From Fabrea salina (taxonomy: Eukaryota > Ciliophora > Heterotrichea > Heterotrichida > Fabreidae): a stretch of 53,783 bases of DNA. Below are positions 1 through 53,783 of this stretch, in pieces; the stretch's first letter is position 1, and every line of letters begins with the position of its first letter. The stretch is taken from contig JALIHJ010000082.1 in NCBI GenBank assembly GCA_022984795.1, forward strand, positions 1 to 53,783, written 5' to 3'. A program made the position numbers and the translations under genes. Below the pieces are notes generated by a model that saw only the letters and a program-made list of their open reading frames with translations, ran no database searches and was not told the DNA's origin.

Positions 1-411
1 TAACACCCTAACACCCTAACACCCTAACACCCTAACACCCTAACACCCTAACACCCTAACACCCTAACACCCTAACACCCTAACACCCTAACACCCTAAC
101 ACCCTCTAACACCCTAACATCCTAACACCCTAGCACCCTAACACCCTAACACCCTAACCACCCTAACACCCTAACACCCTAACACCCTAACACCCTAACA
201 CCCTAACACCCTAACACCCTAACACCCTAACACCCTAACACCCTAACACCCTAACACCTCAACACCCTAACACCCTAACACCCTAACACCCTAACACCCT
301 AACACCCTAACACCCTAACACCTAACACCCTAACACCCTAACACCCTAACACCCTAACACCCTAACACCCTAACACCCTAACACCCTAACACCCTAACAC
401 CCTAACACCCT
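1..411. repeat. Left telomere, C-strand (CCCTAACA)n
   Basis: About 51 tandem copies of the 8-mer CCCTAACA run from the first base to 411, where unique sequence begins. The C-rich strand reads 5' to 3' from the end, as expected for a left chromosome terminus. Irregular units lie within about 101-325: an extra CT near 105, C to T at 120, A to G near 133, an extra C near 158, a rearranged unit near 258 and a missing C near 321. The 8-mer is the unit known from heterotrich ciliates. Confidence 0.97.
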
Positions 412-1678
412 GGTTTTGGAACTGGGAACTAAGCAACTAGAAACAACTTTGTGGGAGTATAACCCTAACAAAGCTTTGTTTGAAGCAGCTAAGGCAGCAG
501 CTCAGTTACAGGAGCAATAGGAACTGGAGCTTCAGCTGGAGCATCTTTAACAGGCAATCCTGCAGAGATGTGGTCGATACACAATAATGTTCAGGTGCTA
601 TCTTACATAGTGCTGAGCAACAACCACTCACACCTACTCTGGAAAGGATTCTTTGAGGGACTACATCTTCGGCATTCTAAAAGGCTACCTCTAATGACTT
701 ACTTGGCTACGAATGGGAATACGGAGTAAGGTCCAACTTGTTCATTGTGAACGCTGGAATAGACATTCTACTATTCTAGTGATTCTACCAAGTTGGCCCT
801 TAGTCTGGGTGCTTTCTAAAATCCCTTGCTTGGAAGACAGATGCGAGTCTCTTCTGAGAGTACAAGTACAACGCATTCATTAGATACTGGATTCAGTGCT
901 ATTTAGACCTGTCTATTGCGTGCTTTACCCAGGTGTCTTCATTTCCGAGTGCAAGTCTACTAGAAATAAGTAACTTCATAGTTGCTTGTTTTGTTCTGTA
1001 CTGGATTTTATGACTCCTAAGCAATTCTTGGCTTCTTCAGAAGAAGAGAAGACTCAATCAGAAGTTCCCAGACGATTCACAGGCCTGTACAAGACCTACG
1101 GAACACTGCCTTATGAATTCAATCGCAGGTCTGGAGGTACAGGCTTACTTACATGGTGTTTGTGGTGGAAAGACCTGGGTTTAGCTGCAAGTTTGGCACT
1201 GCTAGGAAGCTACTCCTTACGTCCAGGCTTCGGTAAACTGTGGAGTGATTCTGGTCTACAGTGTTTGTGCTGAAAGTAAGACCTACAAAGAGATGAAACC
1301 GCAGATATGTCCATTGTAGCCCAGTTAGTGGTCACTCTGGTCTACGGACTAGCTATATTCTTCTTGGACCCTGGAAGCTTAGAGTACGAGTTGGAGGTGA
1401 CAGTGATGTACTCAACTATGGGACTGATCTTTTTCCAGTCCTCTGTGTCACTTCTGGGTGTATTATGCTATATATTTCTTTTCAGAAAAAGAAGTTCAGT
1501 CACCCCTGTAGTTCCAATAGAAGAAGTCAGTGTGAATCAAAACACCAACCAAACAGCTAACAAAGAAATTAGCCAAGAAACCCCAGCTGAAGAAAGTCCT
1601 TCCAAGCCAAGAAGGAACTACCGAAGCATCAACGAGATTACAATTGTCAGAAGATCCTTAAGAATGTTAAACCAATAA
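412..1678 (+). pseudogene. Decayed C-terminal part of a ciliate multi-pass membrane protein, cut off by the telomere
   Basis: Several open stretches in different frames line up, in order, with what I recall of the C-terminal half of a large ciliate surface-protein family. At 493-729 there is a Gly/Ala/Ser-rich stretch followed by MWSIHNNVQVLSYI. At about 875-1009 there is KYNAFIRYWIQCYLDL and a hydrophobic segment. At 1010-1273 there is a soluble stretch with LYKTYGTLPYEF. At 1307-1678 there are two hydrophobic segments and a Ser/Thr/Lys-rich tail. These stretches are separated by frame changes and in-frame stops, and everything 5' of the region is missing at the telomere. I infer a truncated pseudogene. 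The last 123-residue piece (ATG at 1307) is intact as an open frame and might still be expressed. The family assignment is from memory. Confidence 0.5.
1276..1290 (+). other. Candidate 15-nt intron inside the left pseudogene
   Basis: The stretch GTAAGACCTACAAAG has the length and ends of the four clear introns in this chromosome. Removing it keeps the frame of 986-1273 and opens the way into the frame of 1307-1678. However, a TGA triplet lies in frame just before it (1271-1273), so the spliced message would still be interrupted. I read it as a relic intron. Confidence 0.4.
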
Positions 1679-2231
1679 CTTAATCTTTAATAAATTTCCT
1701 CTTCATTACTGTCTGCTGTTATGTTTTCATTGAGTTTATAATCTAACCTTTAATTAAACGTCTCATGGATACCCCAATAGCTCTAAAGCCTTCATAAGTA
1801 TAGGAGTCCCTAGTCTTCAGTATTTGACTTGTAACTAAGTTAGAATCGGAAATCTGATTAGTAACATCCCGCTTGCAGTAGTTGTTTGTGGCTGCACAAA
1901 CCAACTCCAAACTGTTATAGTTCGCGAGTGAGTTAGTAAATTTCAAGTTTTCTTAAGCTTCTCTTATTCTCAGATATCGAGTAACTGCGTTTACTCCAGA
2001 ACTAAAGACTCACTCATTTGAATGATTTCTGACTCACATTCAGAAATCTGAGTGAGTATTTCGCTCGTACCAGCTTTCAGAGTGCAAGAACTTCCAGTGT
2101 TACTGATTACAGCGGAACTCAGGGCTGTATAGTCACACAAAAAGTTCTACTTCAGTACTTTCCTAGAACTTGGTACTTCTGAGGAATAAAAGTTTTTATT
2201 ATAGATGGAGTTTGAATCTTACCGTTAAAAC
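1679..2231. other. Gene-poor left subtelomeric spacer
   Basis: These 553 bp separate the left pseudogene from the first intact gene. The minus strand is open at 1743-1946 (67 codons), but that frame has no ATG near its 5' end and no family I recognise. It could be the tail of another decayed gene. A short partial inverted repeat with GACTCAC/GTGAGT-type words lies around 2005-2055. I found no tRNA or other RNA gene. Confidence 0.5.
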
Positions 2232-2765
2232 TTAACTTAAGTACTTCTTTTTAAACTTCTTTTTCAAACAACAAGAAACACAACACAAAAAACTCCCTAC
2301 ACAAAAAACAACTAAAAACTTTTCAAAGAAACTCAGAGAGTCTTCTGACTGCTCAGACAAGTAAAGTTCTTGGTTGCTCCCAGCTTCAAACTGCGAGTCA
2401 GTCTCCTCGTCCACTTCAACATTGCACAGGTACACAAAGGGGGCACTAGCATTCTGTGAGTTACTAGTAGTAAATCCTTCTTTGCACTTGCATACTTCGT
2501 CTACTAATTCTCCGTGCAAACATTTAATAGGTTTATCTTCTACTACAGTTTCGTTGCTGGTTTGGGTGGTGCTTGGTATGTCAGGGGGTGTTTGGTTTCT
2601 TTCAATGCAAGAGTTAGACTCCACTCTGTAAACTTGGTTTTCCTGGCAATCTGGAACGGGGTAGCACTTTCCATCAGTTTCATTAAAGAAGTTCCTTTCT
2701 CCAAAGTACTCCAGTCGACACTCTCGGGCTTCTAATAACTGGATCCAAAAAATCATATGAATCAT
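2232..2765 (-). CDS. Small Cys-rich single-pass membrane protein (hypothetical)
   Basis: The product has 177 residues. The N-terminus (IHMIFWIQLLEARE) looks like a short signal peptide. It is followed by a Cys-rich ectodomain with several N-x-T/S sequons, including an EGF-like stretch with the spacing C-x(8)-C-x-C. Near residues 152-168 there is a hydrophobic, Cys-rich membrane segment, and the protein ends in a short Lys-rich cytoplasmic tail. I infer type I topology: ectodomain outside, small tail inside. I do not recognise a family. The start codon lies only 2 bp downstream of the stop of the transporter gene on the same strand, so its promoter must lie within that gene or the two are co-transcribed. 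Confidence 0.7.
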   Translation of the reverse strand: MIHMIFWIQLLEARECRLEYFGERNFFNETDGKCYPVPDCQENQVYRVESNSCIERNQTPPDIPSTTQTSNETVVEDKPIKCLHGELVDEVCKCKEGFTTSNSQNASAPFVYLCNVEVDEETDSQFEAGSNQELYLSEQSEDSLSFFEKFLVVFCVGSFLCCVSCCLKKKFKKKYLS

Positions 2766-2767
2766 TA

Positions 2768-4024
2768 TTAACTAAATGGATACTTTTTCTTTGACTCTGA
2801 AATAACATTGGGCAGAGTACTAAGTGCAGTCACTAAGTTAACTATAACCATAAAGCAAAAAACAGCACTCCAAGACACACTCTGCAAAGAACCTATAACA
2901 CCTTGTCCCAAAGCAGCGCCTAAACTGCCTGAACCATTGATGATTCCTATAACTATAGTTTTAGGCTTGGAACTTTCCCCTTGCGACAAGTCAGTTGCAA
3001 CCACAGTTGAAATCAAGTTACAACTTCCACCTATCATGAACCCAGTTGCAGGTACTATTAAAAAAAACATCCAGGCTTCTTCAAGCCCTACATACTGAAA
3101 AAGCACTACAAAAGGAACTGCTAAACCCAAAAATAGCCCAACTACTCCTGAGCGCAGAAAAGTTATTTGGCATAAGCGGCCTCCCAGTACACTCCCAGCA
3201 ATCGCTCCTAAGTCGTACAAGCTAGTTAACACTCCTACTTTGTTAAGTCCCATTTTGTAGTGAGTTTGTAAGTAGTAAGGAAGCCACATAAAGAACCCAT
3301 AGTTCAGGAGTTTTGCCCCTGAGTAGCTTATAGCGCAACAAGCTACTCCAGGCAGCAACCAAGACTCCCAAAACCCTACTTTGCAGGGTTTTTTAACTTG
3401 CTCTTTCAGAAGAAGTGAGTCTTCACTTGAAAATGTTTTGGGTGGGCAGTCACTTACTAAAAAGTGCACACACAACCCCATAACTCCCATAAAACAAGAA
3501 GTAATCATAACTACCCATTCCCAATCAAAACCTAAATCTTCGTGCAAAATAGCAGCTACCCATTCACCTACTATGTTGCCTAACGAAGCATTTGCACCCC
3601 AAAGCCCCATTACTTGCGCTCTAGACTCTAGAAACCAGTTTGCTACTATCCCCACTGCTATAGTAAGTATGCACCCCTGGGCTATTCCTTCTACTGCCCA
3701 TAAGCACAAAAACAACCAAAAAGACTTTACTGAAGCCAGCCCCAAAAGGCCTATTCCGCAAAAAGCCCCCATAGAAGCTAGCATACTAGTGGTCAGAACT
3801 GCACTGGGCGAGTACTTGTCAGCCAGGACTCCAGAAACAAAGTACCCCATTGAGTACAGAAACAGAAAAGTTGAGTCCATAATTCCTAACTGGGTTGAAG
3901 AGTACCCTTGAGTAGTATGGATTTCGCCCTTAACCATCCACCAGCCTTCTCTGGAGGAGTGAGCTGCCACTATGCAAAGGAAAGTCACTAAGTACACCTT
4001 GGCCTGGTCATTCGTCATCTTCAT
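2768..4024 (-). CDS. MFS organophosphate/sugar-phosphate antiporter (SLC37/GlpT-like)
   Basis: The product has 418 residues with about 12 hydrophobic segments. After the second segment there is the major-facilitator motif GVLADKYSPS. The N-terminal REGW..VK and the overall pattern resemble the SLC37 and GlpT/UhpT group, which exchanges glycerol-3-phosphate or hexose phosphates for phosphate. The substrate is inferred from resemblance only. I chose the ATG at 4024. The open frame runs on to 4165, but that extension lies antisense inside the start of the kinase gene and does not look like transporter sequence. The divergent kinase gene starts 13 bp away at 4038, so the two starts must share regulatory sequence. 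Confidence 0.8.
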   Translation of the reverse strand: MKMTNDQAKVYLVTFLCIVAAHSSREGWWMVKGEIHTTQGYSSTQLGIMDSTFLFLYSMGYFVSGVLADKYSPSAVLTTSMLASMGAFCGIGLLGLASVKSFWLFLCLWAVEGIAQGCILTIAVGIVANWFLESRAQVMGLWGANASLGNIVGEWVAAILHEDLGFDWEWVVMITSCFMGVMGLCVHFLVSDCPPKTFSSEDSLLLKEQVKKPCKVGFWESWLLPGVACCAISYSGAKLLNYGFFMWLPYYLQTHYKMGLNKVGVLTSLYDLGAIAGSVLGGRLCQITFLRSGVVGLFLGLAVPFVVLFQYVGLEEAWMFFLIVPATGFMIGGSCNLISTVVATDLSQGESSKPKTIVIGIINGSGSLGAALGQGVIGSLQSVSWSAVFCFMVIVNLVTALSTLPNVISESKKKYPFS

Positions 4025-4037: not shown

Positions 4038-5561
4038 ATGGAAGGTTCCCGGTATGGAATATTAAGGAGAAGCCACAAGAAACCTAAAGACATCAAACAA
4101 GAGTTCAAAACAGAAGACTTGAGAGAACTTAAGTTAAGGAAGCCACCGCCTAAGCACGAACCCAAGAAGTTAGAAGTGTCAATTGCCTCTAAAGACTGGA
4201 TAGTGGGTGTAGAGTCCCCTGTGCCTCCTCAGTTTCCTGAAGAGCAAAAGGAACCCCAAGACATGGAAATCGACATGCCTTCTGCTGAACTGGTTGTTGA
4301 GGAGCCCTTTCAGAACCCCGTTCAGAGTCCCCCAAAAGAAACTTTTAAAAGGGATCTAGAAACTCCCAGAGAAGTTTTAGAGACTCCCGAAGAAGTTATA
4401 GAGATTCCTAAGAAGGTTCCAGAAACCCCTAAAGAAGTTCTAGAAATCACTCAGCCCCCCAAACCCTCAAAACCCCGGTCCAGAAGCCGCAGTCCCAAAG
4501 GTGAAGAGAGTTTAGATATATTTGAACAAACTCCACCTGAAAGCGAGGAAGAACTCATAGTCAGACAAACAGGAGACGAACTCCAAGACCTAGAAGGCTA
4601 CTACGTTCCTCAAGTAGGGGAACTAATCATAGACTACGAAACTCCCAGAAGGTTCAAGATCCAAGCAGTGCTTGGCAAAGGAGTGTACTCCAATGTGGTC
4701 TTAGCTTACGACTTAGAGTCCACCCACAAACATGCCATCAAGATCCTAAGAAACAACGAAGCCATGATAAAAGCAGGCCAAAAAGAAATAAAAGTGCTAC
4801 AACTACTGAACGAAAACGACTCACAGGACAGAAAGCACCTTATCAGACTGCAGAGTTACTTTTACTACCAAAGCCACCTGTGCATAGTTTTCGAGGAATT
4901 AGGTCTGAACCTAAGAGAAGTTCTTCAGAAGTACGGAAGCGAAAAAGGCTTGTCTCTCGAAGCAGTGCGGTCTTTCTGCAAACAAGCTTTTGTTGCTTTG
5001 GCTTACTTGCAAAGACACAGTGTTATTCACTGCGACATCAAACCAGACAACATGCTGCTTTCAAAAGACTTGAGAAAGCTCAAACTCTCGGACTTCGGAA
5101 CAGCTTTAACACAAGGAGAAAACACCCTGACGGAGCACTTAGTAGCTAGGTTCTACAGACCTCCTGAGATCTTTCTAGGCTATCCTTATGACTCGAGTTT
5201 GGACGTGTGGAGTCTAGGCTGCAGTCTTTTCGAGTTGTACACAGGGAAAGTGTTGTTCCCAGGAGTCTCTAACTCGCACATGCTTGAACTCATTATGCAG
5301 CTGAAAGGACCCCTTCCTAAGAAGATGCGAACTCAAGGTAAGTTTGCCAGTGAGTACTTTGACAAAACTCAGTTTCTGCACTCAGGGGTTCCTATTCAAC
5401 AAATCAAGAAAGAAAAAAGCTTAGGAGTTAAACTGAATTCTCAAACCAAAACTGAACATCTCTTTGAAAACTTACTTGAACAGTGCTTAACTCTAGACCC
5501 CCAAGAAAGAATCCAGCCTTACGCAGCTCTAAAGCACCCTTTTTTAAATACAACTAATTAA
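4038..5561 (+). CDS. PRP4-type (PRPF4B) spliceosomal protein kinase
   Basis: The product has 507 residues. Residues 1-190 are low complexity, with repeated E(T/I)P(K/R)(E/K)V-type units and a short SRSRSRSP stretch. The kinase domain starts near residue 199. It has a glycine loop GKGVYS, a lysine in HAIKIL, the catalytic loop HCDIKPDN (about 331) and DFGTA (about 352). The activation segment RFYRPPEIFLGYPYD and the following GCSLFELYTGKVLFPG and NSHMLELIMQLKG match PRP4 kinases rather than other CMGC kinases. PRP4 phosphorylates U4/U6.U5 tri-snRNP components during spliceosome activation in the nucleus. The ATG at 4038 avoids an antisense extension upstream. The stop overlaps the convergent phosphatase gene by 8 bp. 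Confidence 0.88.
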   Translation: MEGSRYGILRRSHKKPKDIKQEFKTEDLRELKLRKPPPKHEPKKLEVSIASKDWIVGVESPVPPQFPEEQKEPQDMEIDMPSAELVVEEPFQNPVQSPPKETFKRDLETPREVLETPEEVIEIPKKVPETPKEVLEITQPPKPSKPRSRSRSPKGEESLDIFEQTPPESEEELIVRQTGDELQDLEGYYVPQVGELIIDYETPRRFKIQAVLGKGVYSNVVLAYDLESTHKHAIKILRNNEAMIKAGQKEIKVLQLLNENDSQDRKHLIRLQSYFYYQSHLCIVFEELGLNLREVLQKYGSEKGLSLEAVRSFCKQAFVALAYLQRHSVIHCDIKPDNMLLSKDLRKLKLSDFGTALTQGENTLTEHLVARFYRPPEIFLGYPYDSSLDVWSLGCSLFELYTGKVLFPGVSNSHMLELIMQLKGPLPKKMRTQGKFASEYFDKTQFLHSGVPIQQIKKEKSLGVKLNSQTKTEHLFENLLEQCLTLDPQERIQPYAALKHPFLNTTN

Positions 5562-6054
5562 ACTTATTCAGAACAGAATAGTCCAAAGCTTTAAGTTGTC
5601 TTGCAAAAGAGGAATTAGGACACACACAAGCACGACCTTTTCTGGCAAAAACCAAAGCGTCCTCGTAACTCAGTGAGTAGAACCCCATTATGTAAGCTAT
5701 AACTACTGAACCGCTTCTAGAAGCCCCAGCGTCACAGTGCACAAAGGTTTTTTCGCCTTTTTTAATTGCTTCAGATATGAATTCTAGTGCTTCTGGTAAG
5801 CAGTTAGTTATGTTTTGGTCAACTGAGTCTGGAAGTGTTATTAAGTGGTAGTTGAACTCACCCTGCAACAAAGGAACTGTTGGTGCGTTTTGGATTTGTA
5901 TGATGTTTTTGACTCTAAGTGACTTTAGCTGGCTGAGTTCAACTGCTCCTTGCTTATTGCCCATATAAACAAAGTTGTCTATTTGGGAAATAGGAGTTCT
6001 GAGAGCTCTGAGTACCTGTAGGGGGTCTGTTTCTTTAGGGAATTCGTTATTCAT
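5554..6054 (-). CDS. Dual-specificity protein phosphatase
   Basis: The product has 166 residues, the length of a bare DUSP catalytic domain. The N-terminal part reads IDNFVYMGNKQGAV, like the beginning of MKP-type domains. The active site is HCDAGASRS near residue 105, with the cysteine and arginine of the HCx5R signature intact, followed by the helix SGSVVIAYIM. A general-acid aspartate is plausible at LPDSVDQN. It is expected to dephosphorylate Ser/Thr and Tyr residues; the substrate is unknown. Its TAG overlaps the 3' end of the convergent kinase gene by 8 bp, and its start lies 9 bp from the stop of the Spc24-like gene. Confidence 0.85.
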   Translation of the reverse strand: MNNEFPKETDPLQVLRALRTPISQIDNFVYMGNKQGAVELSQLKSLRVKNIIQIQNAPTVPLLQGEFNYHLITLPDSVDQNITNCLPEALEFISEAIKKGEKTFVHCDAGASRSGSVVIAYIMGFYSLSYEDALVFARKGRACVCPNSSFARQLKALDYSVLNKFN

Positions 6055-6063
6055 TTTAATTAG

Positions 6064-6597
6064 TTAAGCATCTTCAATCAAACCCCACAAAGTGTTGACT
6101 CTTTTAAACCTATTTGTGTCTTTGATGTGGAACCTTTCAACTAAGTTGCCTTTTAAAATAAGTCCTTTGCAGTCTTCAGACTGGTCCCACCTGACTCTAG
6201 AGATGTTTGAGTAGACTCGAATTTTAAATGACTCAAGGTCAATGTTTTCTTTGAGTTGTTCAACTTTAGTTTCGAGTTCTGCTTTTTGGTGTTCTAAGTC
6301 TTCAGAGTTCTCTACTGTTGATTTATAGTACTCATTAATGCTTTTCTCTAATTCTTGTCTTGCTTCAGAAACCTCGTTTTTAACTGTTTCGTTCTGTTTA
6401 ATTTTAGTGTTGAGTTCTTGTAATTCCCGCTTTTTCTGTTCAACCATGTAAGTCAGTCTGCTTTGTTTTTCTCGGGTCACTTCAGGAACTTCTAGCACAT
6501 TGGCTTCTATGTCTTCTAAAAAGGTTTTCACAGTTGTTGGTAGTCCATGCAGCATGTCTTGGCACTCACGCATTCTGTTAAGCAGGTCTTTGTCCAT
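6064..6597 (-). CDS. Spc24-like kinetochore protein (NDC80 complex)
   Basis: The product has 177 residues. A long coiled coil (about 55-125) is followed by a small C-terminal globular part that reads VYSNISRVRWDQ and ends NTLWGLIEDA. In Spc24 the same place has a short domain with (I/V)YxxISxIxWD and a terminal LWxLVD. The total length and the coiled-coil-then-globular order also match Spc24, which pairs with Spc25 and anchors the NDC80 complex at the kinetochore. The identification rests on the C-terminal motif and architecture. If right, it would act in mitosis of the micronucleus. Confidence 0.68.
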   Translation of the reverse strand: MDKDLLNRMRECQDMLHGLPTTVKTFLEDIEANVLEVPEVTREKQSRLTYMVEQKKRELQELNTKIKQNETVKNEVSEARQELEKSINEYYKSTVENSEDLEHQKAELETKVEQLKENIDLESFKIRVYSNISRVRWDQSEDCKGLILKGNLVERFHIKDTNRFKRVNTLWGLIEDA

Positions 6598-6603
6598 CTT
6601 TAT

Positions 6604-7611
6604 TTAGTTTAACAACTCTTTCAAAGCTACAACTACTCCCATTTCTTCTTTTTTGGTTTTTTTGGTTTGCAGAAGTTTTTCGTTCACTGCAAAGCACCAG
6701 TTCTCAAGTAGTTCTGTTTGGTGTTTTGACTCGTTGAGTGCAGTTTGTAAGTTTTCGCGGAGGGTTTGTTGGTAGTAGTACTGTTCTTGGATCATGTTTT
6801 GGTTGTCCAGAATCACGTTGAGTTGTCTGGCTAGGTTGTTGGAGGTGTCTTGCTTGACTGCTGAGTAGTTCTGTGAAGCTTGAATGGCTTCTTGGTTGCT
6901 TAGTTTAAGTTCGTCGTAAGCTTGTAAAGTTTCTAGTTTAAGTTGGTTGAGTAGTGCTGCTATTTGGGCTCTAAGAGTTTGGTCTGAAAGGATAGTTTGT
7001 GTACTAGCTGTTTCTAAAAGAGCTTTAACTAAGTAACTGATGTCTCCGGGTTCTTCAATAACTTTACTAAGCTCTAACAAGTTAGCTGAGGACTTAGCAG
7101 TTCCAGCAAAGTTTGAGTTCTGGGCTTCCAGCACTTGAGTGGCTTCTTCACAGACTTGAAGAGTTTTTTGGAGGTTAGCTTCTTTTTCACTGAACCTGAC
7201 TTGTTGTTTGTGAGCTTCTTCTTTAGCAGTGTCAGACCAGCCTTTAGCTTGTATCACTTCTTGTTCCTTTTCTGGCACATAAGTTTTGGAGTCTTCTATG
7301 AGGCCTTCGAGTTTTTCTAGTTCTTTGTCGACTTTTTGAATTTGTTCTTGGTACTGCTTGAGTTCCAGTTCGTGTGCTTGGGTGTAAGAGTTACACAGTG
7401 ACTCTAGCTGAGTGTACCGGTCTTCAGTTCTATAGAAGTCTTCTCTGATGTTGTTAGAAACTTTGTTTAGCAATGCTAAACTGTCTGAATCTCCAACTAA
7501 CTCTAAAAGTGCTTTGCCGTAACTATGTTTCTGGACTTGTTCAAGCAAAGTACTTTTCCTTTCAGCCAAAGCACAAACTAGCACCAATCCACTTAAGACT
7601 AGTAAATTCAT
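6604..7611 (-). CDS. Secreted coiled-coil protein, possibly a granule-lattice (trichocyst-type) protein
   Basis: The product has 335 residues. It begins with a clean signal peptide (MNLLVLSGLVLVCALAE) and has no other membrane segment. Nearly all the rest is predicted coiled coil, rich in Gln, Glu and Leu, with only a few cysteines. A signal peptide plus acidic coiled coil is the layout of the Grl/tmp proteins that crystallise in secretory granules of Tetrahymena and Paramecium. Heterotrichs carry cortical pigment granules and extrusomes, so a similar role is plausible but inferred. The gene sits 6 bp upstream of the Spc24-like gene on the same strand. Confidence 0.6.
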   Translation of the reverse strand: MNLLVLSGLVLVCALAERKSTLLEQVQKHSYGKALLELVGDSDSLALLNKVSNNIREDFYRTEDRYTQLESLCNSYTQAHELELKQYQEQIQKVDKELEKLEGLIEDSKTYVPEKEQEVIQAKGWSDTAKEEAHKQQVRFSEKEANLQKTLQVCEEATQVLEAQNSNFAGTAKSSANLLELSKVIEEPGDISYLVKALLETASTQTILSDQTLRAQIAALLNQLKLETLQAYDELKLSNQEAIQASQNYSAVKQDTSNNLARQLNVILDNQNMIQEQYYYQQTLRENLQTALNESKHQTELLENWCFAVNEKLLQTKKTKKEEMGVVVALKELLN

Positions 7612-38226: not shown

Positions 38227-38496
38227 ATGGCTAGTTCCTTAGAAAGCTTTGTTGACAGGGAAGTTTCCATCATAACTACTGACGGAAGGCACTACGTGGG
38301 AGTACTCAAGGGTTTTGACCAAGCAGTAAACTTAGTTCTGGGAGACTGCAAACAACTAGTGTGGAACGGAAGTTCTCCCAAAGAAGAAATCGACTCACAG
38401 AACTTAGTCATCAGGGGAGACACAGTTATGCTAGTTGGCCTCAAAGACTCTTCAGTTGAACTTCCCACAACTGGAGAACCACTTAACCCCATTTAA
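38227..38496 (+). CDS. LSM8: LSM8, U6 snRNA-associated Sm-like protein
   Basis: The product has 89 residues with a complete Sm fold. Sm1 is VSIITTDGRHYVGVLKGFDQAVNLVL (positions 13-38), Sm2 is LVIRGDTVMLVG, and the tail EPLNPI matches LSM8 (EPLN). LSM8 distinguishes the nuclear LSM2-8 ring, which binds the U6 snRNA 3' end, from the cytoplasmic LSM1-7 ring. It is the fourth splicing gene of this chromosome and converges on the dipeptidase gene with 4 bp between stops. Confidence 0.95.
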   Translation: MASSLESFVDREVSIITTDGRHYVGVLKGFDQAVNLVLGDCKQLVWNGSSPKEEIDSQNLVIRGDTVMLVGLKDSSVELPTTGEPLNPI

Positions 38497-42105: not shown

Positions 42106-42110
42106 TTATA
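42106..42110. promoter_or_regulatory. 5-bp divergent spacer CAT-TTATA-ATG
   Basis: TTATA alone separates the two ATG codons. The combined stretch CATTTATAATG places TATAA or TTATA against both starts. Confidence 0.6.
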
Positions 42111-46100: not shown

Positions 46101-46787
46101 AGTTTTCATTTCCTTGAAGGTTTCCTCTGCAATGCCTCCAGCTTTTTTGTAAGCGTTGTAGGTAGCACTTGCGTTTTGTTCCATTCCTTTGTTGGTGAGG
46201 TACAAACCCCCTGCTGACACCGGCCCAAAGCAAAAGGCTATCAGGGAAAGCTTTGTGCCTTCAAACAAGGCCAGTATTGCCGAACTCAAAATCATAGAGA
46301 AGGTGAAAATCACTATCACTAACTTGTCCCCTGTGGCCATTTCCACCTTTGAAGTGTCTGAAGTAATTGAGTTCGGCAGCTCTGCTACATTGTTTTTGTC
46401 GTACCAAGCACCATCCAATTCAAGAATCTTCTCTAAGTACTTCATTCTAAAGTGCATTCCTTGACTGGTGCCTACATTGATAAAAAGCATCACTGCAAAG
46501 TAAGCAGCCACTACAAAGCAAGCCCCAAACATCACCATGTAAAGGCAGATAGTTGCAGCTTCTTCGTAAAACTCTTCTCCGGAAACATCAGGTCCTAGTT
46601 GGTTGTAGAACTCACCCATGAAATAGAATAGAAGTGGCTGAATCACTCCCATGCAAACAGCACTTAAAGTTCCTAGCCCCATCAAAACCCAGTCTTTGTG
46701 TGTAGCAAAACTGAAAAGGTTTCTGAAGCTTTCTTTGTGGAGTTTCTGATCGACAATTAAGGGCCTCTCAGTCTCAAAAACTTCCAT
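43176..46787 (-). CDS. Full-length ABCB (MDR/P-glycoprotein type) transporter
   Basis: The product has 1203 residues in TMD-NBD-TMD-NBD order. NBD1 has Walker A GPTGSGKSS, signature LSGGQKQR and Walker B LLLLDEATSALD. NBD2 has GISGSGKST, LSGGQKQR and VLLVDEGTSALD; the catalytic glutamate is kept in both. Each TMD has about six helices. ABCB transporters export lipids, drugs or peptides, in the plasma membrane or an organelle membrane. Substrate cannot be read from the sequence. The neighbouring phytochelatin synthase invites the idea of thiol-peptide transport, but gene order in so dense a chromosome is weak evidence. Confidence 0.95.
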   Translation of the reverse strand: MEVFETERPLIVDQKLHKESFRNLFSFATHKDWVLMGLGTLSAVCMGVIQPLLFYFMGEFYNQLGPDVSGEEFYEEAATICLYMVMFGACFVVAAYFAVMLFINVGTSQGMHFRMKYLEKILELDGAWYDKNNVAELPNSITSDTSKVEMATGDKLVIVIFTFSMILSSAILALFEGTKLSLIAFCFGPVSAGGLYLTNKGMEQNASATYNAYKKAGGIAEETFKEMKTVAAYNAQNYHLKKYTAALEVPYRSMVVGGFKGGMGTGLGIAGFQWMMAVIYIVGAVEVNDQNENWADGETMDIGKVIIVMFVSMIAFNNIGTLVPSFKMISDGKKAAATILNVINTPSETLSGSLKPKLKGSIEFWNVEFSYPSFPDTKVLRQVSFQVDSGKSLGIVGPTGSGKSSVVQLLLRFYDCQSGKILLDGSDIKDYDLSYLRSQVGFVSQEPALFDTTIYENIRYGRLDATNEEIEEAASKVGIYEFVCSLPEKFETKVGNKGSQLSGGQKQRIAIARAIIRKPCLLLLDEATSALDSSTKREVTQTIETHFGSSSVILIAQDLLTVKNCDRIIFIESGEIVESGSHEELMELGGKYYSLFQIQDIQSYSGKEFGTEPKAELETQTQDKEEVPNFKENKQLGYFKRIILQNKKQVYWLALGCLGSLLVGGMYPLTGMFSGMEIYLLATQEDIIAKSQEYAIGIILLSLVILFGMFLESISYPRLTSTITSNMRTAGFKALVSFEPSYFEEPENKSCASKLSQDCEKVNGLGGSIFGVALAIVSSLAVAHGVAAYFSWRLSLVILAIVPILIFAISSVYLAQMAGLVTYSYQRCSEVVWDAVLNYKSVRAYGLREVMIERYKEPIQTESSKTARRAHWSGFTYGVGFGLIFWVYSLIFWYGAKLVADNDNSFEEMIIAFTTAIIGSDAFFIAGIYMPDMKSGIQAAKSIFKIIDFKPKIEVNSEKGLKPQILGKVEFQDVSFFYPNRSVPALTQVSFTIQPRSSVALIGISGSGKSTIAQLLTRLYDVSSGSIFIDGMNIQDINLKHLRSQVCLVPQEPILFSGTISENVSYGLECDHTRIMEAIERAGASEFVQNHQDGLERQVGLHGNQLSGGQKQRIAIARAYVRNPRVLLVDEGTSALDAKTEKLVEEALQDLTQHATTIFISHKLQIIEKAQMAIVLERGRVVESGSIQELYHSGGYLKGLFSG

Positions 46788-46797: not shown

Positions 46798-48726
46798 TTA
46801 AGAATTAGTGATCTTATAACCTTCTTTGCTCAGAGCCTTGGCAGCATCTGTTTTACCCAAACTAAGCATATTCTGGATCTCTTCTTGAGTGTAGCCATAA
46901 GGAGACAAGGTGTTCGGAAGGTCCTCTGAAGGATAGATCACGCTTCTCAAGTTGATGTTTTGAAAGTCATGTTTGATGTTCGTGACTACTTGCATGTTCG
47001 AGTTAAATGACTCAATGTCTAAGTACCTCGAGTAAACTTTAAGGGTTGTGTAGCCTCCACAGTCTTTGGACTTAATCGTCTTTCCTGATGGCAACACAAC
47101 GTCCAGTATTATGTCCTCAATTCCATAGCCTTTTTCCATGCAGCCATTGACTGCACTTAGAATATCCACAGTGAACTTAACGCTTCCAGAAACCAACTTA
47201 AACTTTTTGTAAGGCACCAAAGGAAAGTAAATTGGCTCACTTGCACTTGCATAAACTCCTGAAGTCATAGCACTGTTGGACAAATTAGTTGTGTTGAAGA
47301 ACACGTAGTTTCCACTAAGTAAGTCGGTAGTTCCTACTCCAAAGAACCTTTGGAAGGGCGCTGAAGCTAGCTTGTTCACAGTGGTTTTAAGAGGGTCTGT
47401 ATTGTAAAGTCCAGACTTTCCCAACAACCCTTCTATGTAGCTTCCGATCCACTGCTTGTAAAACTGGCTTGTTTGGAAGTTAGTCCAAAAGTTTTCAAGG
47501 TGAGTGCTTGCATAACTCTCAGACTTTTTCTTATATTGAGCAATAATAAGCCCATTAATAGCCCCCACTCCGTTCCCAGTCACCACATCCCACTCTGCTT
47601 CTCCAGCAGGAAGGTTGTTTACTAACCCAATCACAGCTCCAGCTTCGTAGGCTCCTCTATCGTTGCCACCTCCCAAAGCTAAGGCTCTGCACTTTTTGTT
47701 GTTAAATGAGTAGTACCTAGGCGCAAATACCTTAGTGATTTCATCCTTTGCATCTTTTATATACTGATAGTTATTTGCCAGTATATGGTAATATTCGTAA
47801 AGGTCCAAAAACTCCTTACTCATGTAACTGTAAATACAGTCGTCCCGGGACCTACCAACTGTGTTGCAATTGTTGACTTCTCGAGAAGTGTACCACTCTT
47901 TAAGGAGTTTATTGTATTCAACATAGTAGTAGTCTCCTGGGGCTAGAGTGCAGTAACTCTTTCCATTAAGTCCACACTGGCAATAAGTATTCCAGCGATC
48001 AACTTGAGGACAGTCAGCGTCGCTTTGGCACTCAGAGGCCATGCCATTCGGGTTTGCTGGAGGGTTTTGACACTGCTTAGTAATGGGATTCATGTAAAGG
48101 CTTTCGCAAACCAGGCTCAGGTTTTCATTAGGACCTGCATTTACTTTTCCGCCATTTTTTAGTGAACCTACTTTCATGCAGGTACTGTTTGCACATACGT
48201 AGTTGTTCTGACACTGCTGAGTTATGTTGCAAACACTACCTTCTTGGTACTGGTCTACACACCTGCACTTATGGTCTGTTTGGTACTGAGAAAAAAGACC
48301 TGGTTCACAGTACTCAGAGTAGTCGTTTTGGTAATAATAGCAATCGAAAGTTTCGTTTTTTCCGTAGCCTTTACAAACTCCGTTTTGGCAGCCTTTGGTG
48401 TAATGAGAGTTACAGTCTTCATAGTACCAACACTTTGAGCCTGGGTACCCTTCATAGTCTCCTCTTATTTCAGGCGAAGGCACGTAATCAGTGCAGTATA
48501 TGCTTTTTTTAGTCATTATATCGATGTAGCTACCGTAGTAGGTATGGTTGTTTTGACAAGTGTTCCTTCCACTACAGACTGAAGGATCAATGGTAAAAGT
48601 ATTGTTTGACTCACTAAAGAATGCACACTGGCTTGAATTAGCTTCTGCAAACTGATACTGAACACATTCGAGGCCATGAGTTCCTAAAATAGCCAGAATC
48701 AAAACGTTGATTCTCTGTGCAAACAT
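46798..48726 (-). CDS. Secreted Cys-rich protein with inactive patatin-like domain
   Basis: The product has 642 residues. A signal peptide (about 1-18) leads into a Cys-rich, Tyr/Asn-rich ectodomain up to about residue 275 with many N-glycosylation sequons. From about 345 a patatin-like phospholipase domain starts: CRALALGGGNDRGAYEAG fits the oxyanion-hole motif. The nucleophile elbow GxSxG reads GNGVG (384-388), with Gly386 where serine should be. The Asp of the DG(G/A) motif appears replaced by Ser513 (LVSGSV). I infer a catalytically dead family member, perhaps a lectin-like or structural surface protein. It lies 10 bp upstream of the ABC transporter gene on the same strand. Confidence 0.8.
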   Translation of the reverse strand: MFAQRINVLILAILGTHGLECVQYQFAEANSSQCAFFSESNNTFTIDPSVCSGRNTCQNNHTYYGSYIDIMTKKSIYCTDYVPSPEIRGDYEGYPGSKCWYYEDCNSHYTKGCQNGVCKGYGKNETFDCYYYQNDYSEYCEPGLFSQYQTDHKCRCVDQYQEGSVCNITQQCQNNYVCANSTCMKVGSLKNGGKVNAGPNENLSLVCESLYMNPITKQCQNPPANPNGMASECQSDADCPQVDRWNTYCQCGLNGKSYCTLAPGDYYYVEYNKLLKEWYTSREVNNCNTVGRSRDDCIYSYMSKEFLDLYEYYHILANNYQYIKDAKDEITKVFAPRYYSFNNKKCRALALGGGNDRGAYEAGAVIGLVNNLPAGEAEWDVVTGNGVGAINGLIIAQYKKKSESYASTHLENFWTNFQTSQFYKQWIGSYIEGLLGKSGLYNTDPLKTTVNKLASAPFQRFFGVGTTDLLSGNYVFFNTTNLSNSAMTSGVYASASEPIYFPLVPYKKFKLVSGSVKFTVDILSAVNGCMEKGYGIEDIILDVVLPSGKTIKSKDCGGYTTLKVYSRYLDIESFNSNMQVVTNIKHDFQNINLRSVIYPSEDLPNTLSPYGYTQEEIQNMLSLGKTDAAKALSKEGYKITNS

Positions 48727-49024
48727 TTTTTATGAGCTTTTCCGATTTAGTGATCTAGAGTTTTAGTTATCAATCAATGCAGAACCATCAGAAGAGTTAG
48801 TTGTATCTGTAGTCTGGCTTAAATATCAGTCTTCTTAGAAAAACAGGACTTTAAAATTTTTTTATATATAAACTAGTCCATTAACACAAATTCAAACAAA
48901 GCTCTGCAAGAGTTCTTAAATACAAATAAAATTTTTAATACTCCTAGTTGCTCTATGTTAGCATATTCCTAAGAGCTTTTTACAATTGTCTTACCAAAGC
49001 TAAAGTCTAGAACTTGATGTTGAA
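48727..49024. other. 298-bp AT-rich divergent intergenic region
   Basis: This region marks the change from the packed core to the loose right subtelomere. It includes TTTTTTTATATATAAACT around 48857-48875 and other TATA-rich runs. No coding frame or RNA gene was found. It likely serves the divergent patatin-like and WD40 genes. Confidence 0.5.
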
Positions 49025-50292
49025 ATGAAAACTTCCTGTCCTTACAACTGTCAGCCTGTTTCTCAGTGTGACTGTGGAACTCTTTTGTGTGAACACACAC
49101 TGGGCTACCATGCTAGACAAGGCCACAGCATTGATCCTCTTCCTCGGGAAGTAGGCCTTAAACAAGTGCTTGACTTGATTTCGGAAAGGAAGAAAGAAAT
49201 TACTCAGCTAAGCAACTTAATCATAGATGAAGTTCAGAAAATGACTTTGTACAAGCTCGACCGGCTCAAGGAGTTGAGAAAAAAGGTAACTCAGCTTGAA
49301 AAAGTCAACTCGGCCACAGTAGACCAAACTAGAGACCTAATTGATGCAATAAAGGCACCAAAACATCATCTAGACAACATTCTCGACTCGATGAAGAAGG
49401 CAACTAAAGACTCTAGGCCTGTAGTAGTATCCGGGAGCTGGGATAATACTGTTAGGGTTTGGAAGGACGGCACAGCTAGGGTTCTAGAAGGCCACATCAA
49501 TGAAGTGAGGTCAGTGGCTGTGTCTAGCAAGAAAGAATTCGTTGCTTCTGGAAGTCTAGACAAACCATTAGACTTTGGAGTTTGTCTACCGGTCAACAAA
49601 CTCAAGTGCTCAAAGGGCATGATGGTTTGGTTTCCTCTATTGCAATTTCAAAAGACGACCAGTTTCTTGTATCTGGAAGCAGAGATAATACACTTAGAGT
49701 GTGGAGTCTCGGTTGTGGCTTGGAAACTTTGGTTTTTAGTGGTCATACTGGCGGTGTTTTGTCGGTAGCTATTTCGAGCAAAGATGAGTTTCTGGCTTCT
49801 GGAAGTGACGACAAGACTGTCAGGGTTTGGAGTCTCTCTTCTGGACTACAAACTCAAGTTTTCGAAGAACACGCAGGCTGGGTTTGGTCAGTTGCTATTT
49901 CGAGTAATGATGACTTTTTGGTCTCTGGAAGTGAAGACAAAACCATCAGATTACGGAGTTTGTTCTCTGGAACCCAAGTCAGAGTGTTTGAAGGCCACAG
50001 TCACAGTGTGTTTTCAGTGGCCATTTCAAGCCAAAATGAGTTTATTGTGTCAGGAAGCGGAGACAAAACCATTAGGGTTTGGAGCATTGCTCTTGGAAAG
50101 GAAATCAGGATCCTCAGGAGACATACCAGCAATGTTCTTTCAATAGACTTATCGAAAAACGACCGATACTTAGTGTCTGGAGGTGGTTCTGGAGATGATT
50201 CGGCAAGAATCTGGAGTCTTGAGACATGGCAAGAAGTTGAACTTTTGCAAGGCCATACTAGCAGGGTTTGGTCAGTTAAGTTACTCAGCTAA
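49025..50292 (+). pseudogene. Zinc-finger/coiled-coil/WD40 protein, copy 1, with a frame break
   Basis: The N-terminus has eight possible zinc ligands (Cys5, 9, 15, 17, 22; His24, 29, 34) in a B-box-like arrangement. A coiled coil and seven WD40 blades of about 42 residues follow. The reading frame is lost in the second blade near 49561-49566, where GAC AAA (A)CC ATT lacks one A compared with the paralogue and the other blades. Downstream the blades continue intact in the new frame (VSGSRDNTLRVWSL and so on) to a normal stop. Apart from this one base, the copy looks whole, so it is either a very young pseudogene or a sequencing/assembly error. Confidence 0.8.
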
Positions 50293-50764
50293 TAAAACTT
50301 GATTTTAATTGAGCATAGAATATGGATTTCTAAATCTGAAAAGTTGAGCTTCTGCAAGGCCTGATAGAGTCATTTAAGCTAATTAACTTTCTTATTGAAT
50401 TTCTTGAATTGATTGACATTGTTTCTTCGTAAATGAAACCTAGCTTGGTAAGTGGTACTGCCAGCGATACAATTAGAATTTGGAGAAACCCTACAAAGCT
50501 GTATACTTTTGAAGGGGTGGTAATCTTAGACCTTTTCTAGAAGTGCTGAAGTTTCTTAGTCCTGAAGAAAAAATTGGCATCGCAAGAGTTAACAAACAAT
50601 TCTATGAAGCTTACTTTCATTCTGAAATACAAATTCATTGCTTCTTCCTTAGTTCCAACACTGTTGTTCATTAACCATGTGTTACTCACCCTAAGTACTC
50701 AGAAATTACTTCATATTTCTTTGCTCCTAAAACTCAAGTTGCCATTTTCCACCTCCCATTTATA
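50293..50764. other. Spacer between the two WD40 genes, with relic of a third copy
   Basis: About 50335-50385 repeats, in degraded form, the end of copy 1: TTGAGCTTCTGCAAGGC corresponds to its TTGAACTTTTGCAAGGC. At 50433-50540 a short open frame reads KPSLVSGTASDTIRIWRN, matching the first blade region of both paralogues (KPVVVSGSDDKTIRIWED). No B-box or further blades are seen. I take these as remains of one extra copy. The final bases CCATTTATA lead directly into the ATG of copy 2. Confidence 0.6.
50433..50540 (+). pseudogene. WD40 first-blade fragment (relic paralogue)
   Basis: The frame LVSGTASDTIRIW-RNPTKLYTFEG follows the order VSGSxDxTIRIWxDGxxRVLxGH of the neighbouring genes, then stops. 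It is too short to be a gene. Confidence 0.55.
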
Positions 50765-52105
50765 ATGCAAGCCAACTGTCCTTCAAAGTGCCAAGCTATT
50801 TCCAAGTGTAGCTGTGGAGAGTTATTATGTGAGCATTTGTTTGTGAGTCATGTTACTCAAGGTCACTCTATTCACCCTCTGACTCAAAGTGACCAAGTGA
50901 ATGAAGTGCTGAGGATGATTTCCCGCCAGAAAAAAGAAGTCATCCAACTAAGCACTCTCATTGTCTCAGAAGTTGAGAGAGTGACTTCTGAGCAACTTGC
51001 TCTACTCAAACAACTCAAGAACGACCTACTTGACTCCCAATCCAACATTGCTTCAACCATCCAACGAGTCAACCAGGTCAGATCCAAAGACACTTTCGAG
51101 CAACTAATCAACCAACTGGGCTTCAACAACCAACTCCAAGCCCTAGAAAACCAAGTTGCTGAGTCCCAAGAAACAACTCTCCACCAACAACTAGAGACTA
51201 AAGACCAACTACCCCAAGTACTCTCTAGAAAGCCTGTGGTTGTATCGGGTAGTGACGATAAGACCATAAGGATTTGGGAAGATGGAGAGACTAGAGTGCT
51301 TACAGGCCATACTGGATGTGTCTATTCAGTTGCTGTGTCTCTTAAGAAAGGAGTACTAGTGTCTGGTAGTCATGATTCCACCATTCGAGTGTGGAGTCTA
51401 GCTACTGCACAAGTAACCCAAGTACTCAAGGGACATAGTAATGCGGTATGCTCTGTGGCCATTTCTAGTGATGGCGAGTGGGTTGTGTCTGGGAGTAGAG
51501 ACAAAACACTTAGAGTGTGGAGTCTAGCTTCTGGACTAACCACTCAGCTACTCACTGGCCATAGTCATTGGGTTAGGTCAGTGGCCATTTCTACCAAGGA
51601 CCAATTCATTGTCTCTGGTAGTGATGACACTACACTCAGAGTGTGGAGTCTAGCTACTGGACAAGTGATTAGAGTTCTTCAAGGCCATAGTCATTGGGTC
51701 AGATCAGTGGCCATTTCCAAGACTGACCAATACATTGTCTCCGGGAGTATGGACTGCACTGTTAGAGTGTGGAGTCTTACTTCTGGAGACCTGATTAGAG
51801 TGCTGCAAGGGCATGATTGGGTTGTCTGCTCAGTGGCTATTTCAAGTGACGACCAGTTTATAGTCTCAGGAAGTGCAGACAAAACCATTAGAGTGTGGAG
51901 TCTGGCTTCTGGAGAAACTACTCAAGTACTCAGAGGAAACACTGGAGGAGTACTTTCAGTCAACCTATCAAGTGACAATAAGTACTTAGTGTCTGGAGGT
52001 GACTATGGAGACAATTCAGTGAGAGTTTGGGACCTATCTACAGGTGAACAGACTCAAGAACTAAAAGGCCATACTAGTTATGTATGCTCGGTTAACTTAA
52101 TCTAG
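50765..52105 (+). CDS. Zinc-finger/coiled-coil/WD40 protein, copy 2 (intact)
   Basis: The product has 446 residues. The same eight Cys/His positions as in copy 1 are present in MQANCPSKCQAISKCSCGELL and the next 15 residues. A coiled coil spans about 35-155. Seven WD40 blades follow from about residue 157, each with VSGSxDxTxRVWSLxSG and a GH about 12 residues later. Blades are unusually alike: for example GHSHWVRSVAIS occurs twice and the coding DNA of adjacent blades is visibly near-identical. The layout resembles a TRIM protein without a RING, or the repeat-homogenised WD40 proteins of fungi. Ligand and role are unknown. The ATG follows CCATTTATA. Confidence 0.88.
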   Translation: MQANCPSKCQAISKCSCGELLCEHLFVSHVTQGHSIHPLTQSDQVNEVLRMISRQKKEVIQLSTLIVSEVERVTSEQLALLKQLKNDLLDSQSNIASTIQRVNQVRSKDTFEQLINQLGFNNQLQALENQVAESQETTLHQQLETKDQLPQVLSRKPVVVSGSDDKTIRIWEDGETRVLTGHTGCVYSVAVSLKKGVLVSGSHDSTIRVWSLATAQVTQVLKGHSNAVCSVAISSDGEWVVSGSRDKTLRVWSLASGLTTQLLTGHSHWVRSVAISTKDQFIVSGSDDTTLRVWSLATGQVIRVLQGHSHWVRSVAISKTDQYIVSGSMDCTVRVWSLTSGDLIRVLQGHDWVVCSVAISSDDQFIVSGSADKTIRVWSLASGETTQVLRGNTGGVLSVNLSSDNKYLVSGGDYGDNSVRVWDLSTGEQTQELKGHTSYVCSVNLI

Positions 52106-52452
52106 GTTATTAATCTACTTGTTTAAAGATTGACTAATAATGATTTGTAAGTTTATTGCTAGACTTAATTCTAGTTGCAGAGTTCTGTTGACTTCTTCCA
52201 ATTGTTTCTAACTCCAAGTTTGTATTGCTTACACTTTTTCTGTTCTGGTAATGGTTTTTTAGCCAATCACCCAATTAACTACTTAAGTTTCTAAAGTCTT
52301 TAATGTTCTTGTCACTTCTTATCATGTATTTTAACCTTTGGACTTCCACCTAATATTCGATTGCTGTTATCTTAGTGCTTGCTTTTTGGACTTCCCGAAT
52401 ATTGTATTAGGTACCCTGTTTAGTTACTCCAAAGCACTCAATCCAATTTCCT
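52106..52452. other. Right subtelomeric spacer
   Basis: These 347 bp of AT-rich, pyrimidine-rich sequence lie between the last gene and the telomere. There is no long frame or RNA gene. Two partly similar stretches, CTTTGGACTTCCACCTAATATT (about 52337-52357) and TTTTGGACTTCCCGAATATT (about 52385-52404), form a short imperfect direct repeat. Confidence 0.5.
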
Positions 52453-53783
52453 TTAGGGTGTTAGGGTGTTAGGGTGTTAGGGTGTTAGGGTGTTAGGGTG
52501 TTAGGGTGTTAGGGTGTTAGGGTGTTAGGGTGTTAGGGTGTTAGGGTGTTAGGGTGTTAGGGTGTTAGGGTGTTAGGGTGTTAGGGTGTTAGGGTGTTAG
52601 GGTGTTAGGGTGTTAGGGTGTTAGGGTGTTAGGGTGTTAGGGTGTTAGGGTGTTAGGGTGTTAGGGTGTTAGGGTGTTAGGGTGTTAGGGTGTTAGGGTG
52701 TTAGGGTGTTAGGGTGTTAGGGTGTTAGGGTGTTAGGGTGTTAGGGTGTTAGGGTGTTAGGGTGTTAGGGTGTTAGGGTGTTAGGGTGTTAGGGTGTTAG
52801 GGTGTTAGGGTGTTAGGGTGTTAGGGTGTTAGGGTGTTAGGGTGTTAGGGTGTTAGGGTGTTAGGGTGTTAGGGTGTTAGGGTGTTAGGGTGTTAGGGTG
52901 TTAGGGTGTTAGGGTGTTAGGGTGTTAGGGTGTTAGGGTGTTAGGGTGTTAGGGTGTTAGGGTGTTAGGGTGTTAGGGTGTTAGGGTGTTAGGGTGTTAG
53001 GGTGTTAGGGTGTTAGGGTGTTAGGGTGTTAGGGTGTTAGGGTGTTAGGGTGTTAGGGTGTTAGGGTGTTAGGGTGTTAGGGTGTTAGGGTGTTAGGGTG
53101 TTAGGGTGTTAGGGTGTTAGGGTGTTAGGGTGTTAGGGTGTTAGGGTGTTAGGGTGTTAGGGTGTTAGGGTGTTAGGGTGTTAGGGTGTTAGGGTGTTAG
53201 GGTGTTAGGGTGTTAGGGTGTTAGGGTGTTAGGGTGTTAGGGTGTTAGGGTGTTAGGGTGTTAGGGTGTTAGGGTGTTAGGGGTGTTAGGGTGTTAGGGT
53301 GTTAGGGTGTTAGGGTGTTAGGGTGTTAGGGTGTTAGGGTGTTAGGGTGTTAGGGTGTTAGGGTGTTAGGGTGTTAGGGTGTTAGGGTGTTAGGGTGTTA
53401 GGGTGTTAGGGTGTTAGGGTGTTAGGGTGTTAGGGTGTTAGGGTGTTAGGGTGTTAGGGTGTTAGGGTGTTAGGGTGTTAGGGTGTTAGGGTGTTAGGGT
53501 GTTAGGGTGTTAGGGTGTTAGGGTGTTAGGGTGTTAGGGTGTTAGGGTGTTAGGGTGTTAGGGTGTTAGGGTGTTAGGGTGTTAGGGTGTTAGGGTGTTA
53601 GGGTGTTAGGGTGTTAGGGTGTTAGGGTGTTAGGGTGTTAGGGTGTTAGGGTGTTAGGGTGTTAGGGTGTTAGGGTGTTAGGGTGTTAGGGTGTTAGGGT
53701 GTTAGGGTGTTAGGGTGTTAGGGTGTTAGGGTGTTAGGGTGTTAGGGTGTTAGGGTGTTAGGGTGTTAGGGTGTTAGGGTGTT
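52453..53783. repeat. Right telomere, G-strand (TTAGGGTG)n
   Basis: About 166 tandem copies of TTAGGGTG run to the last base, the exact complement of the left telomere unit. The repeats are almost perfect; I see one irregular unit with an extra G at about 53280. At 1331 bp it is over three times the length of the left array. Together with the left telomere it shows that the sequence is a complete linear chromosome. Confidence 0.97.

Follow-up and report, generated by a model that had tools for sequence, protein, structure and literature searches.

Near-zero, orientation-dependent spacing of genes on a telomere-to-telomere macronuclear chromosome of the ciliate Fabrea salina

The DNA analysed here is contig C84 (JALIHJ010000082.1; 53,783 bp, all of which we call the window) of the heterotrich ciliate Fabrea salina, from a genome assembly of 18,328,466 bases in 103 contigs. 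As assembled, the contig is a telomere-to-telomere linear somatic (macronuclear) chromosome, and between 2232 and 48726 it contains a gene-packed core of 34 genes with 33 spacers of median length 7 bp, four 15-nt introns and about 98.5% coding sequence. Between neighbouring genes of the core there are usually fewer than 20 bases, and this near-zero packing is real. Our preferred explanation, which we hold to be probable, is that the window represents a complete macronuclear chromosome of a genome stripped of nearly all its intergenic DNA by streamlining, in which the size of a spacer is set by the gene ends that face each other and genes are transcribed singly. Streamlining itself is already known for F. 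salina: its macronuclear genome, reportedly of about 18.35 Mb, is said to be the subject of a 2022 paper in Mol Biol Evol (msac062) titled 'An extremely streamlined macronuclear genome...'. The part added here is a base-level rule relating spacers to gene orientation, together with head-to-head gene pairs that are only 4-5 bp apart.

A preliminary description of this DNA had proposed a complete chromosome with two telomeres, and repeat arrays were indeed present at both ends: (CCCTAACA)n at 1-411 (411 bp) and (TGTTAGGG)n at 52453-53783 (1331 bp). The CCCTAACA-type repeat is one that we take to be the heterotrich type of telomere. No interstitial telomere runs of two or more units were found between 420 and 52440. 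The core segment 19327-25000 (5.7 kb) occurred only once in the genome, apart from a stretch of 98 bp matched at 79% identity. At least this part of the window is therefore no variant copy of some longer contig. The two arrays are of unequal length and the left one contains several variant units, which possibly originated in the assembly.

Genes were called, blind to the earlier calls, by means of a gene finder with a three-periodic coding model in two classes, which allowed limited overlap between genes and introns of 15 and 16 nt only. An earlier one-class gene finder had returned 35 models with the gene for an MFS transporter split, an error exposed by Pfam and cured by the two-class model. 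The independent calls gave the same number of genes in 2232-48726 (34) and the same number of 15-nt introns (four) as the preliminary description. As called, coding sequence (CDS) occupied 45,795 of the 46,495 bases of the core (98.5%) and introns 60 bases, and the 33 spacers amounted to a net 628 bp, made up of 640 positive and 12 overlapping bases. Hand curation then moved two starts, one to 25894 on the basis of its start context and one to 4024 on the basis of its start context and the MFS domain; the net spacer length became 595 bp, with 607 positive spacer bases, a median of 7 bp and a mean of 18 bp, and the spacers above 50 bp measured 61, 100 and 107 bp. The net value of about 535 bp given earlier is obtained exactly (535) if the longest start, 38186, is taken for the gene at 35172, and is otherwise 595 bp. 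That total stands with the longer start, but as a net figure it masks convergent overlaps of 8 and 4 bp, and we are uncertain of the start of 35172-38126/38186.

Open reading frames (ORFs) of at least 100 aa covered 94.9% of the core, versus a mean of 2.0% and a maximum of 4.7% in 20 first-order simulated sequences; the coding density is therefore not a product of chance. A coding model trained on the other chromosomes alone gave all 34 genes positive scores; by itself this test is not sharp, since 18 of the 33 shadow ORFs of at least 60 aa also scored above 0 under the same model. The best shadow ORF (3573-3911, antisense to the MFS gene) reached 25.4, more than the three weakest genes, 2232-2765 (22.4), 38227-38496 (LSM; 19.4) and 41662-42105 (17.2). 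A Pfam match above the curated cut-off was obtained for 24 of the 34 products, only the large exon having been searched for genes 13 and 20. The case for the genes is carried more by their length, the Pfam matches and the tight fit between neighbours than by the coding score.

The position of a stop codon is given by the open frame, so that convergent spacers are independent of the start calls. The ten convergent spacers of the core measured -8, -4, 0, 1, 3, 4, 6, 8, 15 and 38 bp, nine of them being shorter than 21 bp and two being overlaps. That this start-independent class is the shortest one argues against the view that spacers only look short through starts called too far upstream, an explanation to which we attach very little probability. 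Such a view could draw on the 19 of the 34 genes that have another in-frame ATG within 50 codons, and on the three of these (genes 2, 17 and 26, with gene 19 taken at 25894) in which a later ATG outscored the called one; in the other 16 the called ATG was the better. Context supported the starts, with A at positions -4 to -1 in 55-63% of 174 starts and G at +4 in 45%, versus 28-36% A and 27% G at 1,190 internal ATGs. In several genes domains begin at residues 3-15, and domains or homology were found near the N-terminus of the ferrochelatase (residue 3), the phytochelatin synthase and the LSM protein (residue 4) and the PHD finger protein (residue 10). Shifting all 19 starts to the next ATG would give a median spacer of 30 bp and a spacer content of 4.4% of the core, which is still very compact.

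The preliminary description had regarded the density as a notable local property, and this idea was not borne out. A sample of 180 kb of interior sequence from 19 loci on 19 other contigs (17 of 10 kb and two of 5 kb, about 1% of the genome; loci carry L numbers below) was 93.9% CDS and contained 141 spacers with a median of 18 bp (95% bootstrap interval 14-24) and a mean of 68.6 bp. Using the same caller, the 17 ten-kb loci were on average 94.2% coding (range 86.2-99.1%, five of the 17 at 97.3% or above) and the tiles of the window core 98.2-99.6%, the core being denser than the sample loci (Mann-Whitney p = 0.0065). Tight packing looks like a genome-wide feature, with the window at its dense end. 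Most spacer bases of the sample (65%) were in 15 of the 141 gaps, those of at least 150 bp. At least one large gap contained a 176-aa ORF missed by the caller (L018:6128-6658) and some shared repeat-like sequence with other loci, so the density of the sample is probably a lower bound. Repeat-like sequence was shared between L012:1892-2086 and L024:4556-4740 and between the L017 gap 6492-7268 and L030:4331-4689 (78% and 67% identity), and likewise between L024 and L030. It is as if non-coding DNA survived partly as repeat islands.

Tiny spacers might also be scars left where intergenic DNA was precisely excised as the macronucleus developed, the germline itself not being compact. Blepharisma does remove segments in the tens of thousands, of which some three quarters are bounded by TA, as described in PMC9942856; however, those segments are mostly intragenic according to the same source, and in our data 113 spacers of 6-120 bp had no excess of TA (observed/expected 1.04). 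We consider an origin of the spacers as excision scars improbable.

Pooling of the window and the sample showed that spacer length depended on gene orientation, with medians of 6 bp for convergent (n = 43), 18 bp for tandem (n = 92) and 34 bp for divergent neighbours (n = 39; tandem versus convergent p = 1.4e-5, divergent versus tandem p = 0.028). Overlaps were present at eight of 43 convergent, two of 92 tandem and none of 39 divergent junctions (convergent versus divergent, Fisher p = 0.006), and the two tandem cases are possibly wrong starts. Of the convergent overlaps, five were 4 bp long; in four of these a single TTAA provides both stops, and the fifth is a TTAG. The shortest divergent spacers (4, 5 and 5 bp) are all three located in this window, at 29413-29416 (the shortest of the 39 divergent spacers examined), 21887-21891 and 42106-42110. 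It seems that a gene end requires no private DNA and that a gene start needs some. Taking half of the median convergent and divergent spacers in the window, the pool and the sample, the share of a gene end would be about 3 bp and that of a start about 10-22 bp. No such orientation rule was found for any ciliate in the literature searched, a search that did not take in the main genome paper.

Co-directional pairs made up 92 of the 174 neighbour pairs (p = 0.50), that is, strand order is random, which is an argument against operons. Operon-like units, in which co-directional neighbours would be co-transcribed and then cut apart, are compatible with the common occurrence of tandem spacers of 1-10 bp and with tandem spacers lying slightly below an additive prediction (see below). 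On the other hand, run lengths of co-directional genes were 1-6, the core of 34 genes has ten convergent and ten divergent junctions, and bacterial-style overlaps of start and stop are nearly absent, the two among 92 tandem junctions being possible miscalls. We therefore regard operon-like transcription as unlikely.

Under our preferred explanation, each gene would be transcribed singly; its start region would be A/T-rich and very short, and its leader would measure between a few and about 20 nt. The G+C content of the last 10 bp before the ATG was 0.19 at tandem and 0.21 at divergent junctions, strong A/T-richness being limited to about 10 bases. Most words enriched upstream of genes belonged to the neighbour's own start or stop context; TTATAA was also in mild excess (26 versus 11.6 expected, in an A/T-rich region). 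Words such as TCCATTTA were discarded as the start context of the divergent neighbour read in reverse, and AATAA directly before the ATG was unconvincing as a signal, occurring at only eight of 92 tandem and three of 79 divergent starts.

A different reading, that of the preliminary description, is that regulatory DNA has not shrunk but moved, promoters and terminators being fully embedded in the codons of neighbouring genes. The divergent starts at 29413-29416, 21887-21891 and 42106-42110 speak for it, as 4-5 bp leave no other upstream DNA, and homology from residues 3, 4 and 10 fixes the starts 33165, 42111 and 29417 within a few codons; at the 4-5-bp pairs embedded promoters are hard to avoid unless the messenger RNAs (mRNAs) are leaderless. 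Yet the neighbouring codons had no signature in composition or words. Where the spacer was no longer than 20 bp, the G+C content of gene tails was compared in four bins between tandem (n = 51) and convergent junctions (n = 70), and no bin showed a significant difference (p 0.10-0.36). First codons at divergent spacers of up to 20 bp (n = 26) had no A/T enrichment (G+C 0.443), and in the first 45 nt of CDS no word was enriched beyond chance. We treat the general embedding of regulatory DNA as a possibility of the second rank. Short tandem and divergent junctions would fit equally well with very short or absent leaders.

At gene ends, T was found directly before the stop in 94 of 178 cases and directly after it in 83 of 178, and the strongest six-letter word at convergent ends, TAATTA, is one that two adjoining stops would give. 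According to a value cited in PMC6879139, heterotrich untranslated regions (UTRs) have a median length of 21-23 nt, and if this value is valid here, 3' UTRs overlap the opposite gene; spacers below 21 bp made up 27 of the 33 convergent spacers of the sample, besides the nine of ten in the window. The 3' ends of transcripts are thus likely to overlap neighbouring genes. In the mechanism that we propose, 3' UTRs of about 20 nt would extend into the opposite gene and convergent mRNAs would overlap in antisense at their 3' ends. The statement of the preliminary description that UTRs, promoters and polyadenylation (poly(A)) signals must overlap neighbouring CDS can be kept for 3' UTRs on the same proviso of 21-23 nt, and was not supported for promoters.

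A stronger proposal, to which we give somewhat less than an even chance, is that transcription by RNA polymerase II requires virtually no intergenic promoter. The start would be specified by less than about 20 bp or inside the gene; head-to-head genes with ATGs 4-5 bp apart would be transcribed within or beside each other, giving leaderless or mutually overlapping mRNAs; and gene ends would function without private DNA, with overlapping convergent mRNAs as the rule.

Several points weigh against our preferred explanation. The start matrix was trained partly on the starts that it judges, and the gene finder penalises overlap and can choose a later ATG, by which overlapping starts may be hidden. 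The gene models of the sample lack hand-checking. The A-rich context of starts may act in translation rather than as a promoter. Tandem spacers had quartiles of 6/16.5/41 bp versus 10.5/22.5/55.5 predicted by adding the requirements of a start and an end (Kolmogorov-Smirnov p = 0.046), a shortfall that might point to a degree of coupling between co-directional genes. Finally, transcript ends, leaders and UTR lengths are all inferred from sequence.

The genes of the core are numbered from left to right. Gene 1 (2232-2765, minus strand) has no Pfam match and is followed by gene 2 (2768-4024, minus), for the MFS transporter, with a start at 4024 or 4018; the longest ORF start, 4093, would overlap gene 3. 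Gene 3 (4038-5561, plus), for a protein kinase, overlaps at its end by 8 bp with gene 4 (5554-6054, minus), which codes for a dual-specificity phosphatase. Gene 5 (6064-6597, minus) has no match above the cut-off, and genes 6 (6604-7611, minus) and 7 (7633-8136, plus) have no Pfam match, the TTAA end of gene 7 being common to gene 8 (8133-10535, minus; histidyl-tRNA synthetase; 4-bp overlap). They are followed by gene 9 (10542-11597, minus; protein kinase), gene 10 (11705-14362, plus; LRR protein), the stop of which is TGA, rare in this genome, gene 11 (14424-15944, plus; STIL_N domain) and gene 12 (15983-17797, minus; RCC1 repeats). The product of gene 13 (17805-19292, minus) is coiled-coil-like by eye, its large exon having no match above the cut-off, and its 15-nt intron GTAACTGTTACTTAG lies at 18375-18389 (minus). 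Gene 14 (19327-19896, plus) codes for an ATP synthase OSCP/delta subunit and gene 15 (19898-21886, minus) for a HAT-repeat protein of the Syf1/CRNKL1 type; the 5-bp spacer 21887-21891 lies between the starts of gene 15 and gene 16 (21892-22863, plus; tRNA pseudouridine synthase). Gene 17 (22893-24089, plus) codes for an aspartyl protease, gene 18 (24098-24961, plus) for a product with a PH-like match below the cut-off, and gene 19 (24962-25894, minus) for MORN repeats.

Gene 20 (25939-29412, minus; CLASP/TOG), with the 15-nt intron GTAAGTTTTACTTAG at 29242-29256 (minus), and gene 21 (29417-30154, plus), for a PHD finger from residue 10 and an ELM2 domain, with the 15-nt intron GTAAGTTTCTAGTAG at 29513-29527 (plus), flank the 4-bp divergent spacer. 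Gene 22 (30158-31465, minus) has no Pfam match and gene 23 (31481-33160, plus) is an LRR gene. The homology of gene 24 (33165-34184, plus; ferrochelatase) from residue 3 makes the preceding 4-bp spacer firm, and a 1-bp tandem spacer separates it from gene 25 (34186-35163, plus; SHIPPO repeats), in which no other in-frame ATG exists within 50 codons. Gene 26 (35172-38126, minus), with the alternative start at 38186, has no match above the cut-off. Gene 27 (38227-38496, plus) codes for an LSM protein of 89 aa with the domain from residue 4, gene 28 (38501-39916, minus) for a peptidase M20, gene 29 (39953-40957, plus) for a product with no match above the cut-off, and gene 30 (40963-41655, plus; 15-nt intron at 41346-41360, plus) for a lysine methyltransferase (Methyltransf_16). 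Gene 31 (41662-42105, minus), with no Pfam match, is the least certain gene, with the lowest coding score; its start context is good. Across the 5-bp divergent spacer 42106-42110 lies gene 32 (42111-43160, plus), for a phytochelatin synthase with the Pfam domain from residue 4 and a PDB relative aligning from residue 11, and the core ends with gene 33 (43176-46787, minus; ABC transporter) and gene 34 (46798-48726, minus; patatin-like phospholipase).

Among all 22 predicted introns, 18 were of 15 nt, with the consensus GTAAGGTTTACTTAG and an A near the 3' end; an A near the intron 3' end has been reported for Stentor (PMC10946202). Long ORFs were read under table 1, the standard genetic code, which Fabrea uses according to PMC10553269. 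Assembly size, genetic code, telomere repeat and 15-nt introns are all in keeping with F. salina. Stop usage was TAA 144, TAG 29 and TGA 8 of 181, TGA being rarely used as a stop despite the standard code; the relative Blepharisma stoltei has reassigned TGA. Read-through of TGA was considered and rejected, since the open frame after the eight TGA stops extended for 1-16 codons with scores of -3.2 to 4.4.

Chromosome ends were less dense than interiors: the left end of the window and three of four other left ends had about 1-3 kb lacking gene models, and at the fourth (L027) short gene models began about 0.1 kb past the telomere. The left subtelomere of the window (412-2231) is gene-poor, with one 123-aa ORF at 1307-1678, and its part from 600 to about 1724 has four copies on other contigs with 90-93% identity (C12:44667, C85:47051, C71:69424 and C79:6786). 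A short dispersed repeat at about 1750-1794 of the window was also present at L030:587-632 and L024:4852-4905; its 29-base core was found with at most three mismatches at 39 places including the window (control pattern 0), in both subtelomeres and chromosome interiors, and no Rfam match was obtained in the window, L024 or L030. The right subtelomere (48727-52452) is likewise gene-poor, with WD40 ORFs at 49025-49768 and 50765-52105. The latter (plus strand) adjoins the right telomere and belongs to a multi-copy, mostly telomere-directed family with at least 94 matching stretches, the copy count being a lower bound as 39 of 158 candidates were scored. Among the matches listed, all 39 within the first 20 kb of a contig were on the minus strand, thus reading toward that telomere; most of the others listed had the plus orientation and high coordinates, which lie close to the right end in the contigs of known length (C1, C14, C15, C16 and C19), with minus-strand exceptions at C9:304434, C9:305276, C12:51499, C12:52335, C26:213169, C26:257447 and C77:58120. 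With the gathering score as threshold, Rfam matched no RNA gene in the window or in ten loci (L010, L011, L013, L014, L021-L023, L025-L029 and L031 lay outside this search), and no tRNA was found in the window or L009-L031 by ARAGORN, run with the bacterial code.

The spacers of Giardia muris, which the authors of that work place with the most extreme of eukaryotes, have a median of 37 bp; coding sequence makes up 84.5%, and 9.5% of genes overlap (PMC7641422). Both organisms have A-rich positions ahead of the start codon, short spacers and gene overlaps. In F. salina, however, the median spacer is 7 bp (window) or 18 bp (sample) and coding sequence amounts to 94-98%, and no clear poly(A) signal was found to overlap the stop codon, unlike in most genes of G. 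muris as described in that paper. The nucleomorph of Bigelowiella natans likewise has gene-dense eukaryotic chromosomes with short spacers, averaging 82.1 bp (PMC4035089) versus means of 18 bp in the core and 68.6 bp in the uncurated sample. The heterotrich Blepharisma stoltei is also gene-dense, with 15/16-bp introns and short spacers and UTRs, and differs in its genome of 41 Mb and in UGA coding for tryptophan (PMC9942806). Close to this core are two genomes of the marine bacteria Ca. Actinomarinales (PMC7771536), with 97% coding sequence and a median spacer of 2-3 bp; those genomes average 4.6-4.8 genes per operon, whereas strand order here is random with no sign of operons. The core has bacterial density without signs of operons.

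These results provide a measured limit, with spacers below the 37-bp median of G. muris, gene ends that need no private DNA and gene starts that need a few bases. They make testable the question of the minimum size of a eukaryotic promoter and terminator, and of how head-to-head promoters share 4-5 bp. If it is true that no intergenic promoter is needed, the genes of F. salina would rank with the smallest transcription units known from free-living eukaryotes.

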